Notes under the pieces: model-generated
Seen by the model: the letters and a program-made list of their open reading frames with translations, nothing else
Told to the model about the DNA's origin: nothing
The model's database searches: none
Program-made: the position numbers and the translations under genes
Assembly: GCF_007859765.1 (NCBI RefSeq)
Contig: NZ_SIHJ01000002.1
Span: forward strand, 124,001 to 188,000
DNA: 64,000 nt
From: Posidoniimonas corsicana
GTDB lineage: Bacteria > Planctomycetota > Planctomycetia > Pirellulales > Lacipirellulaceae
Direction: 5' to 3'
In this document: piece after piece, positions 15,218 through 47,029 of the stretch
Layout: the number at the start of each line of letters is the position of its first letter
Position numbering within the stretch: the first letter of the stretch is position 1

Positions 15218-17425
15218 CTACAACGGCGAATCTAACCAGCTATCGACCGTCGCGAAGACCTCGCGGACCGGCTCCTCCTCCGCAGTTTCGCCGGTCTCAA
15301 CGTGAGCGTTGAGTTGCTCTGCCTGGGCCGCACGCTGGCGCTGGGCAGCCAGCAGCAGCAACAGGTCCGGCTCCGCTTCAGTCGAAGATAACGCCCGCTG
15401 CGGCCTGACCGGCCCGCCAAGCGACCGCTGCGGGCGCGGCGACGGAGTCAGCACCAGCGGCGCAGCCGGCGCCGGCTGATCGTCAACGACCGCTTCGTCG
15501 GCGTCGGCGACCGCTTCAACTACCAGCGGGGCGGCCGCGGTGGCGCCCAGGTTGTCCCGCCAGACGGTGTAGTCGGCGCTGTCGACCCGCCCGTCGCCGT
15601 TCCCGTCCGCCTGCAGGCGTGAGCCGGTCTGGCCGTAGCTCGACCGCCACAGCGCGTAGTCGGCCTGGTCCACGACGCCGCTGTTGTCGAAGTCGCCCCA
15701 GTCGGCGTTGCTCTCGATGACCTGTGGAGTCACCGAATTCTCAAGCTGGGTTGGGTCGTCGATGCGGCCCATGAACGCGATGGTGTCGGTCACGTTGTCG
15801 CGGATCATCAAGTGGAACGGTCGGTTCGCGTAGAAGCCCGTGTCGTAGAAGTTGTGCGTCCAGACCCCGAAGCCCCAGTCGTCCTCGCCGATAAAGAATG
15901 TTCGGTGCTCCGCGACCCGCAGGTTGAAGACAGCCTCGACCTTGCCGGTCCGCTGCACGTACGACACAGCGATCGCTCCGCCGCGGTCACAGGCCAACCG
16001 GTCTCCTGAGCTGATCTCTGCGGCCGGCAGCCACCCCTGCCCCTCGACGAAAAACGGGTGCAACTCTGTCGTGCGGATCACACGGCGCCCAAGGTGCAGT
16101 TCTAGAATCTCTGCCTCGCCGTGGCGGGTTGCTTCAACCACCCTTGGCTCAACGGGCCCCTCGAGCAGGTGCTCGTTCCGAGCAAGCACGGTGTCGCCAA
16201 CCCGCACCTCCTCGATCGGCGCCGCGCCGTCTGGCGTCAGCACCGACGTGCCGGCGGCAAAACAGAGTGCAAGTTCGACCTCAGTCGCTGCCGCCGCTGT
16301 CGTCCCCTGTTCGTTCACCTCAAGCGTCGCTTTGTGGAAGACCTTGCGAATATAAACCTCCTCCGCCTGGCCATTGGCCCCGAACATCGGCGAGAAGTCG
16401 GCGGAACCGGGAATGAACGCGGTCGGCATGCCGAGGCCTGCAAGCGCGTGGTTGAAATCGGTTGCGATGTCCGTGCTGAACTTAGGGAGGTTAATCAGGG
16501 TCATCCTGCGAGAACGGCCGGCCGAGTTCGTCCAATCGGTGATGCCGACGAACAGCTCCTCGGTCATCATGTTAGAACCGTCTTCTACGAGCGGCATCAT
16601 GAAGATCGCTGACGCCTCGCCGTCGGACATCGTCATCTCGATCACGTCAAACCCGTCAATCGTCGTGCGATAGACGTCTGGTTGACCGTACATGATCTCT
16701 GCGTTAACAACGTCCTTAGGCGTGGTGAAGCTACCCAACTGAGTGAACTCGGGATCGAATGGGTCGTCCCAACTCCCGTTGAAGAACACGGCATTGACGA
16801 TCACAGCAACAGTTGCAGAAGACAGATCGTCGACCAGGTCTTGGATGCGTCCTCGCGTGACGTCACTCACCCACTCGTTGATGCCGTCCTTGACTTGAGC
16901 TGCGTCCGAAAAGTCTGCGCCCTGGATCTGCGCGTCGTAATGCTCGGTGACGACGTCAGAGTAATCACCCATAAGACTCTGACCGCTCCAAATCCCATTC
17001 GCTACATCCATCTGAAAATCGAAAGAAGCAGGGGACCCGCCATGCCACCAGTCCGGCGGGTCACCTGGGAAAGGCCAGACAACCGGCGGCGCCGGGTCCT
17101 CCCCTGTCCGCTCCGCGAACGACGCCAGCAGCTCGCCAAACGCCGCGTGGATGTCTTCGGAGTCGCCAAAGTGCAGCACCTCTTCCATCTCGGCGGCGGT
17201 CTGGCCGCCGGCGCCCGCGTAGGTCATCGCTAGCGCGGTCGAGATGCTCAACGGCGAGAAGAAGAGGTTGCCCTCTTCGTGCTGCATGTGCTGGTAGAGA
17301 TCGAACGCGAACTGGTTGATCGCCGCGGCGGCGTCGCCGGCCAGCAGGCAGCGTTCTTCCAGCGGCTCGTGCCGCAACGTCCGCTGCCGCTTGTGGGTGC
17401 GATCTGCGTGGGTCGATGCCGACAT
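15218..17425 (-). CDS. Secreted serpin with Hint (intein-like) domain in its reactive-centre loop, plus dockerin repeats
   Basis: 735 residues. The N-terminus carries PLEERCLLAG (21-30), an export-associated motif of planctomycete surface proteins. A complete serpin follows: NLFFSPLSISTALAM, VNAVFFNGSW, INLPKFSTD, hinge EVNEQGTTAAAATEV (369-383), and, after an interruption, ANRPFHLMIRDN and AFMGRI. The interruption, Cys388 to Asn525, is a Hint domain with first Cys, TxxH (Thr453, His456) and terminal THN. Residues 577-627 are two dockerin-like EF-hand repeats (DFDNSGVVDQADYALWR, DGNGDGRVDSADYTVWR). The last ~100 residues are Pro/Ala/Glu-rich and unrecognised. The alanine-rich hinge predicts an inhibitory serpin. 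The residue after the Hint is Phe, not Cys/Ser/Thr, so canonical splicing is doubtful. It converges with the biotin enzyme gene; stops are 16 bases apart. Confidence 0.9.
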   Translation of the reverse strand: MSASTHADRTHKRQRTLRHEPLEERCLLAGDAAAAINQFAFDLYQHMQHEEGNLFFSPLSISTALAMTYAGAGGQTAAEMEEVLHFGDSEDIHAAFGELLASFAERTGEDPAPPVVWPFPGDPPDWWHGGSPASFDFQMDVANGIWSGQSLMGDYSDVVTEHYDAQIQGADFSDAAQVKDGINEWVSDVTRGRIQDLVDDLSSATVAVIVNAVFFNGSWDDPFDPEFTQLGSFTTPKDVVNAEIMYGQPDVYRTTIDGFDVIEMTMSDGEASAIFMMPLVEDGSNMMTEELFVGITDWTNSAGRSRRMTLINLPKFSTDIATDFNHALAGLGMPTAFIPGSADFSPMFGANGQAEEVYIRKVFHKATLEVNEQGTTAAAATEVELALCFAAGTSVLTPDGAAPIEEVRVGDTVLARNEHLLEGPVEPRVVEATRHGEAEILELHLGRRVIRTTELHPFFVEGQGWLPAAEISSGDRLACDRGGAIAVSYVQRTGKVEAVFNLRVAEHRTFFIGEDDWGFGVWTHNFYDTGFYANRPFHLMIRDNVTDTIAFMGRIDDPTQLENSVTPQVIESNADWGDFDNSGVVDQADYALWRSSYGQTGSRLQADGNGDGRVDSADYTVWRDNLGATAAAPLVVEAVADADEAVVDDQPAPAAPLVLTPSPRPQRSLGGPVRPQRALSSTEAEPDLLLLLAAQRQRAAQAEQLNAHVETGETAEEEPVREVFATVDSWLDSPL
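15851..16264 (-). other. Hint domain coding segment inside the serpin gene
   Basis: Encodes residues 388-525. Block A is CFAAGTSVLTPDGAAPIEEV, the pattern of pretoxin-type Hint domains. Block B is RTTELHPFFV (Thr453, His456). Block F is VFNLRVAEHRTFFIG, and block G is VWTHN with His524 and Asn525. At 138 residues there is no room for a homing endonuclease. All residues needed for N-S acyl shift and Asn cyclisation are present. The downstream +1 residue Phe526 fits bacterial intein-like (BIL) domains better than classical inteins. By counting from hinge Gly374 as P15, Cys388 occupies the serpin P1 position. Confidence 0.85.
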
Positions 17426-17646
17426 GCCGCCTCCTCCTCTGCCTGGTTCCCGGTGACGAGCCCCGCATTAGTGTGGGACCGCCGGTCACGCCAAACCGCA
17501 TCCTACTCGCGTCGGCAGGCGGCCGCAACGTTTGCCCCCAGCGCCCGCATGGGGTCGACTGCTGCCAGGCAATCTGCACGCGGCAGGCGGATATCAGTAG
17601 AAACCGGCCACCCCGCGCGGTCCAATTGGGGGTGGCTGGTTGCCGC

Positions 17647-17720
17647 CCACTCAGCCGCTGGGCGCTAGCCCTCGATCAATACTGGTTCGCCTCGTGGGCT
17701 AACGCCCAGCGGCTGAGTGG
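17647..17720. repeat. Long hairpin, 25-bp arms
   Basis: Left arm 17647-17671 (CCACTCAGCCGCTGGGCG then CTAGCCC) and right arm 17696-17720 (GGGCTAACGCCCAGCGGC then TGAGTGG) are reverse complements at 24 of 25 positions, with a 24-base loop. It lies in the 506-base gap between the fucose-isomerase-like gene, which ends at 17932, and the serpin start at 17425. Both genes are on the minus strand, so it could be a terminator for the former or a dispersed REP-like element. No T-run follows. Confidence 0.75.
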
Positions 17721-17747
17721 GGTGCGTTGTTGATTATGGCTTGAGGG

Positions 17748-17920
17748 TTTTGTCCACTATTGTCCCTATTGGCGCACAGAGGTGGACAAAAGTCGGCCGC
17801 TGCGACCGAGGAGAAGAACAGCAGACACTGCTATACAAGCGTGAAACGAGCCTGCGGGTTAGTGGTGGGGTCCGACTTTTGTCCCTAAGAATCGATAGCG
17901 CCAAAAGGGACAAAAGTCGG
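17748..17920 (+). repeat. Dispersed two-hairpin repeat, copy A
   Basis: A 173-base non-coding unit. It opens with TTTTGTCCAC (17748-17757) paired with GTGGACAAAA (17782-17791). The middle holds CTGCTATACAAGCGTGAAAC (from 17828). It closes with a perfect 14-base inverted repeat, CCGACTTTTGTCCC (17872-17885) and GGGACAAAAGTCGG (17907-17920). A copy in the opposite orientation lies at 29335-29493; the closing hairpin is 43 of 44 bases identical and the core 22 of 22. It encodes nothing recognisable. With the 17647 hairpin it fills most of the 17426-17931 gap. Confidence 0.85.
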
Positions 17921-29283: not shown

Positions 29284-29334
29284 GGCTGACCCCTGCGTTG
29301 GCGATCCCGGCGAACCGCCGTGTGGCGCCAAGAG

Positions 29335-29493
29335 TTTTGTCCCTTTTGGCGCTATCGATCCTTAGGGACAAAAGTCGGGCTCCATCTCGAGCCTCGAATT
29401 CGTTTCACGCTTGTATAGCAGCCTCTACGCGTGCCCCACCCACCGAACCTGCCAGACTTTTGTCCCCTGCTGGGACAGAATAGGGACAAAAGT
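29335..29493 (-). repeat. Dispersed two-hairpin repeat, copy B (inverted)
   Basis: Reverse-orientation copy of the unit at 17748-17920. TTTTGTCCC (29335-29343) pairs with GGGACAAAA (29365-29373). Bases 29335-29378 match copy A's closing hairpin at 43 of 44 positions, and 29400-29421 match its core at 22 of 22. The far end (29456-29493) again has a TTTTGTCCC/GGGACAAAA pair but diverges in sequence. It lies in the 433-base gap 29284-29716; the rest of that gap (29494-29716) shows no gene or structure I can name. Confidence 0.85.
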
Positions 29494-29716
29494 GCCCAAC
29501 CCGATCGGGCGCTCAACCTGTGCGACTGCGCCGCTAACAAGCGCACCGCCAACCCATAGTTCTACCCGACAAGGTGGCCGGTTTCTGCACAAAAATGCCG
29601 CGACCTACCGCCCCCAACGCCGCGTGCCGCCTCCTTCCATGAATGCTACGATACCAGCTCGCTGCGACCCGGGGCGACGGCCGGCCCTTCACCATTCCCC
29701 CACTCACCAACGCGCC

Positions 29717-46024: not shown

Positions 46025-47029
<1,005 letters not shown>

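Follow-up and report, generated by a model that had tools for sequence, protein, structure and literature searches.

A dispersed family of intergenic palindromic repeats in Posidoniimonas corsicana, probably of mobile origin

Introduction

The 64,000-nucleotide stretch of the Posidoniimonas corsicana genome analysed in this work (hereinafter, the window) contains two non-coding repeats, copy A and copy B, lying in opposite orientation 11.4 kb apart. An earlier note on this DNA described them as sharing a 22-base core and a 44-base hairpin, and proposed either a MITE-like mobile element or a structured RNA family. The question raised by this locus is what kind of element the two copies represent, whether it is (or was) mobile, and what might keep it in the genome. 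The arrangement itself is as described: both copies are present in the sequence, the 22-base core is identical in the two (17828-17849 and 29400-29421), and the 44-base hairpins differ by one base.

Results

The two copies in the window

The limits of the copies, given in the earlier note as 17748-17920 and 29335-29493, are 17756-17919 and about 29332-29494. The element is, moreover, larger than first described, because a conserved left box, which had been missed, is located upstream of each copy. The features are the following:

17756..17919, + strand: right unit of copy A, 164 bp (profile-model match)
17756..17795, + strand: hairpin 1 of copy A, with arms at 17756-17766 and 17784-17795
17826..17849, + strand: core of copy A, type 1, whose 22-base part (17828-17849) is identical to that of copy B
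17873..17919, + strand: hairpin 2 of copy A, with arms at 17873-17885 and 17907-17919
17748..17755, + strand: additional outer TTTTGTCC motif preceding the copy A unit, read from the sequence, like the doubling in some other copies
17597..17627, + strand: left box of copy A, TAGAAA (17598-17603), 17 bases, TCCAAT (17621-17626); the box is conserved upstream of units, on the same strand
17646..17721, + strand: long hairpin between the box and the unit of copy A, two 30-nt arms, 93% complementary
29332..29494, - strand: right unit of copy B, read from right to left (profile-model match)
29400..29421, - strand: core of copy B, 22 bases, identical to copy A
29557..29588, - strand: left box of copy B, CAGAAA (29582-29587), 17 bases, TAGAAC (29559-29564), from the best-match line

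A repeat search pairs the two copies as an inverted repeat (17857-17918 with 29332-29393, 62 nt, 87% complementary). A sequence-only model built with copy A and without copy B recovers both of them in the window (E 2.6e-32 and 5.9e-28), and its three further rows there overlap the same two copies. Copy A is flanked by the start of a serpin gene on one side and by the 3' end of another minus-strand gene on the other, and copy B is located 48 bp before a small minus-strand gene. The serpin (15218-17425, minus strand) is interrupted, towards its C-terminal half, by an inserted HINT (pretoxin/intein-like) domain. The hairpin at 17646-17721 is peculiar to copy A among the copies folded; a 13-mer of it is found again at window position 46285 (minus strand) and at a few other loci.

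Copy number and genomic context

The genome of P. corsicana (6,765,537 bases in 13 contigs) harbors about 120 merged places of the family (122 when model matches and boxes are merged), and at least 54 places exist in the genome of a sister species of the same genus, referred to as G041. When copy A was used as the query against its own genome, 43 rows were obtained at E ≤ 0.001; the arm 12-mer CTTTTGTCCCTA, with at most one mismatch, matched 174 times (89 + 85), compared with 8 times (5 + 3) for the reversed control. This is a repeat family far beyond chance, and the further copies that the earlier note had suggested looking for exist both in the genome itself and in relatives. A model constructed from 31 copies gave 147 matches in P. 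corsicana and 126 in G041, opposite-strand duplicates being counted in; the distinct places among the matches listed are at least 65 and at least 54, respectively, and together form the 119 places used in the counts below.

The units are mostly intergenic, only 7 of the 119 listed places overlapping a gene predicted by a simple codon-based gene caller. The orientations of the neighbouring genes are spread over all four classes (32, 27, 25, and 23 units, out of 107 for which a gene was called on each side), so that the idea of a leader of downstream genes was rejected. No gene family is typical of the neighbourhood, the commonest one occurring in 3 of 115 neighbouring proteins (best 25 of 143 families). 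Gaps shorter than 10 kb between units are rarer than expected at random (8 of 112 versus 20.1, P 0.0002), i.e., the spacing is more even than random. This hints at a use by the host; alternatively, it could be due to recombination removing closely placed repeats.

Architecture of the right unit

Each unit contains four TTTTGTCC arms around a core, grouped as two hairpins, in the order ACTTTTGTCCC, loop, GGACAAAAGTCG, spacer, core, spacer, CGACTTTTGTCCC, loop, GGGACAAAAGTCG. The geometry is rigid: the distances between successive arm starts are 26 in 100 of 115, 93 in 81 of 111, and 31 in 107 of 113 measurable units, nearly all the other values being off by 1-2 bases, and the unit is exactly 164 bp long in 70 of the 119 listed places. 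The degree of conservation varies along the unit; between type-1 copies of P. corsicana, the identity is 0.94 in the arms, 0.71 in the core, 0.42 in spacer 2, and 0.32 in spacer 1. Two core types were recognized, CACTGCTATACAAGCGTG and one ending in ACTTACGG, and neither fits in 18 of the 119 listed places. By inspection, the feet of the arms read AC/AG before and GTCG/CTC after.

The left box

The left box, TAGAAA-N17-TCCAAT, lies upstream of the unit on the same strand. Its two hexamers resemble -35 and -10 elements about 17 bases apart and are kept while the spacer between them changes, which suggests a promoter-like sequence. The string GTAGAAACCGGCCACC, at no fewer than 13 of 16 positions, is found within the upstream 400 bases on the strand of the unit in 62 of the 119 listed places, compared with 0, 2, and 3 in the other three combinations of strand and side; many of the places lacking it are G041 places carrying the variant GAAAAGAGCCACC. 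A stricter pattern recovers the box in 49 of the 65 P. corsicana places listed, and GAAACCGGCCAC occurs 103 times versus 0 for its control. Twenty-one boxes were located in 20 regions devoid of a listed model match; by inspection, a unit belonging to a second subfamily, or one resembling it, comes after 20 of them, and the remaining box lies inside a gene. The distance between box and unit ranges from 60 to 199 (median 104, 63 places).

Matches to the box 12-mer number 34 and 44 in the two Posidoniimonas genomes; in no other genome of the 296 do they exceed 6. The hexamers recur with different spacers in other genera, at 6 of 28 loci versus 0 of 28 in each of three controls. In 46 of 71 P. corsicana boxes, the AAA is preceded by GTAG. 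A palindrome within the box was also considered, and it was rejected since it does not covary.

Folding and covariation of the unit

Hairpins 1 and 2 fold better than shuffled sequences (mean z from -2.6 to -4.8). For spacers and core, the gain over shuffles is small (z from -0.03 to -0.71; by core type -0.71, -0.17, and -0.64, the value of type 1, -0.71, being slightly below zero). The structured RNA family proposed in the earlier note is not supported for the unit outside the two hairpins, and a separate covarying RNA between box and unit exists in another genus (see below). Core, loops, and spacers show no compensatory changes, with P < 0.05 in 1 of 32 tests. When the loops, spacers, and core halves belonging to the same unit were compared with those taken from different units, they paired no better, and the tests performed per group returned isolated column pairs without any helix. 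Folding of the unit beyond the two hairpins is not supported. Two candidate structures were discarded along the way: a whole-unit RNA structure, for which RNAalifold set the arms in long-range pairs and the covariation ranking tracked subfamily and species, and a core stem spotted by eye in single copies, which failed to hold.

The arms of Posidoniimonas vary too little for a test of compensatory changes. In P. corsicana, the bases next to the arms pair in 50 of 60 cases at the foot of hairpin 1 (46.0 expected) and in 41 of 60 at the foot of hairpin 2 (41.0 expected), with similar figures in G041. The lack of covariation beside the arms favours the arms as DNA motifs, and would be expected of protein-binding sites rather than of stems.

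In Posidoniimonas, the sequence separating box and unit is no more prone to fold than controls (mean z -0.32 versus -0.31). In the search against Rfam, one tRNA was the only match above the curated score, and none was obtained for the element.

Relatives and the young copies of genome G005

By blastn, the family was found in 2 of 43 genomes of the bacterial family; the sequence-only model retrieved related units in 11 of 146 genomes of the order, with strict filters under which weak matches are lost, and all of them belong to the same bacterial family (four genera). One of these genomes, G005, from another genus, contains three full-length copies that are 85-88% identical over 496-538 bp, and pairs of shorter copies reach up to 92%. 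The G005 copies extend from a box-like left end, as read in the three full-length young copies only, through to GGGACAAAATGGACTTT. A search of that genome with the left part of the element returned 39 rows, 19 of them at a contig end; among the 12 left-part loci listed, 7 are followed by a unit, 1 by the start of a unit before the contig end, 3 end too soon, and one (L289) has no unit within 330 bp. The arm sets of G005 mostly change together (TTTTGTCC, TTTTGCCCC, AAGTGACCC), as either pairing or an altered binding specificity would give; in several units of G005 and of genome G003, young G005 copies included, the third arm is AATAAAGTCGCC or AATAAAGCCCCC and mismatched.

Between box and unit, the G005 copies carry a sequence of about 200 nt, repeated in the genome (loci L283-L312), which appears to be a structured RNA family. 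In 13 copies, 10 compensatory pairs were counted, compared with 3.3 in shuffles (0 of 500) and at most 5 when the sequences were slid; these copies are related, and two divergent ones supply several of the changes. A GC hairpin with a T run after it forms an intrinsic terminator. The whole-sequence fold of one such RNA is no better than shuffles (z 0.48), and two matches to Rfam were both below threshold. No RNA like that of G005 was found between box and unit in Posidoniimonas.

Searches in wider collections returned little. Copy A had no match in phages and plasmids; the G005 element matched three records of a plasmid collection, at most 9% covered and taken as chance, and a 20-mer of the G005 RNA had no match in viral contigs. 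Among named genomes, in a collection that may leave out records near P. corsicana, one family pattern had no match and another was found in two MAG records, at a single site each.

Shared sites, empty sites, and age of the copies

Sixteen G041 units, read by eye, share place and orientation with a unit of P. corsicana. In 15 of these 16 orthologous pairs, the arms are 0.906 identical, and spacers and loops 0.401, compared with 0.376 in non-orthologous pairs (P 0.02). The core is no more alike in orthologous pairs than in other pairs (P 0.37); it has thus changed at sites shared by the two species, a change that is unexplained.

Most copies have no close relative, the identity of spacers between nearest neighbours being close to the null (median 0.57 versus 0.53, with 15 of 60 above the 99th percentile of the null), so most copies are old. 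An identity of 0.8 is reached by 2 of 60, i.e., copy A and one other (nearest by whole-unit identity). The Posidoniimonas copies thus appear to be mostly old, yet their arms and spacing are intact. Since the copies were found by profiles favouring intact arms, the strength of any selection is uncertain and may be overstated.

Empty sites, which the earlier note had suggested checking, do exist: at the syntenic position in G041 copy A is missing, and its neighbours lie 345 bp closer together. In the region of copy B, the G041 counterpart is longer and has no unit among the matches listed. In the search for a target-site duplication (112 units, 61 with a box), no offset stood clearly above shuffled pairs.

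Transposases and a guest insertion sequence

The earlier note reported no transposase in the window. This is correct for Y1_Tnp (PF01797), the only family tested, which has five matches in the genome and none in the window. Among 39 Y1 loci drawn from five genomes, 3 have a unit nearby, and in the loci read no autonomous copy with shared ends was found. In one locus (L051), a box and a unit are immediately followed by a Y1-like transposase gene (1405-2306).

Among 20 contig ends of P. corsicana listed (within L014, L032, L044, L045, and L074-L091), 16 start inside one insertion sequence (IS), and 14 of these 16 abut an arm. A short derivative of the IS (L173, 600-1000) is flanked on both sides by AGTTTTGT, an apparent 8-bp duplication. 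A C-terminal fragment of the IS resembles DDE_Tnp_1, with E 0.00048, below the curated cut-off. This IS is preferentially located in the arms, as a guest distinct from the repeat. The starts of contigs C1 and C11 and the end of C3 (L085, L083, and L088, respectively) have a different repeat in common.

Discussion

The family consists of many dispersed copies with a rigid unit and free spacers, some sites being filled in one species only, and near-identical copies exist in G005. We lean, on balance, towards a lineage of non-autonomous, gene-free mobile elements whose old Posidoniimonas copies have been retained by selection, their arms being held by a protein. The element would extend from the promoter-like left box through the right unit of about 164 bp, with its four arms, two hairpins, and core. 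An enzyme encoded elsewhere might have read the arms and moved the element, leaving no target duplication; the host may then have kept the copies as sites, a fate also proposed for REP/BIME sequences, and a multimeric DNA-binding protein could hold the four arms at their fixed spacing. Retention by the host is probable because arms, spacing, and box are kept while the spacers are near random. Against a mobile lineage stands the fact that neither a transposase nor an autonomous copy was found, nor a target-site duplication. The changed core of shared sites, the mismatched third arm of some relatives, and the G005 left part that has no unit nearby (L289) also speak against this reading.

The same observations have to be weighed under other explanations. 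It is possible, if clearly less probable, that the repeats are a multi-copy family of host non-coding RNA genes, the box being the promoter and the two hairpins the 3' domain of the transcript. This would account for the hexamers kept 17 bases apart and recurring with other spacers in other genera, for box and unit lying on one strand, and for the covarying RNA of about 200 nt, with its terminator, after the box in G005; however, covariation is lacking in core, loops, and spacers, whose folding barely exceeds that of shuffles, the Posidoniimonas stretch between box and unit behaves like control sequence, its length varies from 60 to 199, and the whole G005 RNA folds no better than shuffles in the one sequence folded. 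A broader scenario, in which a mobile RNA gene bounded by matching palindromes is still spreading in one genus and was domesticated in Posidoniimonas as about 120 selected sites, box and core co-evolving with a species-specific trans-acting factor, is likewise conceivable and about equally doubtful. The rigid geometry with free spacers, the rarity of gaps below 10 kb, and arms acting as independent motifs would also suit dyad-symmetric binding sites that organise the host chromosome and were never mobile; we consider this unlikely, given the young near-identical copies of G005, the presence or absence of sites between species, and the confinement to one bacterial family among the genomes drawn, and the even spacing is also explicable by recombinational loss of near repeats.

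MITEs are short, gene-free, dispersed elements with inverted arms at their ends and a target-site duplication. The present element is likewise short, gene-free, and dispersed; its unit is bounded by inverted arms on either side, and it has recent copies in G005. The mobile side of the MITE-like proposal of the earlier note finds a basis in the near-identical copies at many sites of that genome and in the presence or absence of copy A between species. Nevertheless, no target-site duplication and no matching full IS were found, and the Posidoniimonas copies look selected: the spacers have diverged almost to saturation with no loss of the arms or of their spacing, in orthologous pairs as well, which makes an ordinary MITE with merely decaying copies very unlikely. 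A standard REPIN system moved by a REP-associated Y1 transposase (RAYT) seems more improbable still. In its favour are the two intergenic palindromes in inverse orientation across a linker, without target duplication, the Y1 gene beside a unit in L051, and the GTAG of the boxes; on the other hand, neither GTAG nor CGTC is found at the feet of the palindromes, GTAG being present only in the box (46/71), the box itself has no covarying palindrome, and a unit is near just 3 of 39 Y1 loci. Since REPIN/RAYT and MITE each fail a defining feature that was tested, the element lies outside these known families and is assigned to none.

Returning to the mobile, host-retained lineage that we favour, the element probably behaves as REP/BIME-type intergenic palindromes do, and a mobile origin is probable. 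According to passages of PMC8266576 and PMC3116915, REP, BIME, and REPIN sequences share with it the many intergenic copies, the inverse palindrome pairs across a linker, the lack of target duplication, and a probable maintenance by the host; unlike them, as far as those passages go, the present unit is longer and rigid, with a core and a promoter-like box, its arms lack the GTAG foot, and no associated Y1 transposase has been established. The GTAG-tagged repeats described in part of PMC3733652 are likewise palindromic and come from the same (PVC) superphylum, and GTAG is in the box of many copies here; it precedes, however, a promoter-like box without a conserved palindrome, rather than the arms. 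IS elements that insert into REP sequences, such as ISPpu9 (PMC8450116), parallel the P. corsicana IS sitting in repeat arms; the latter is a guest of the repeat, and its fragment resembles DDE_Tnp_1 only below the cut-off. A limited literature search returned no description of the element.

The family is of interest since one bacterial family displays a REP-like element from young copies (G005) to old, apparently selected ones (Posidoniimonas), and the shared sites allow selection after insertion to be measured. A single element joins a promoter-like end, a rigid palindromic array, a structured RNA gene (in one genus), and its own parasite IS, and the question of whether such repeats are parasites or host sites is now directly testable. 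As a minor observation on the same genome, Table 2 of PMC7717034 gives 91 tRNAs in P. corsicana compared with 54 in P. polymericola.
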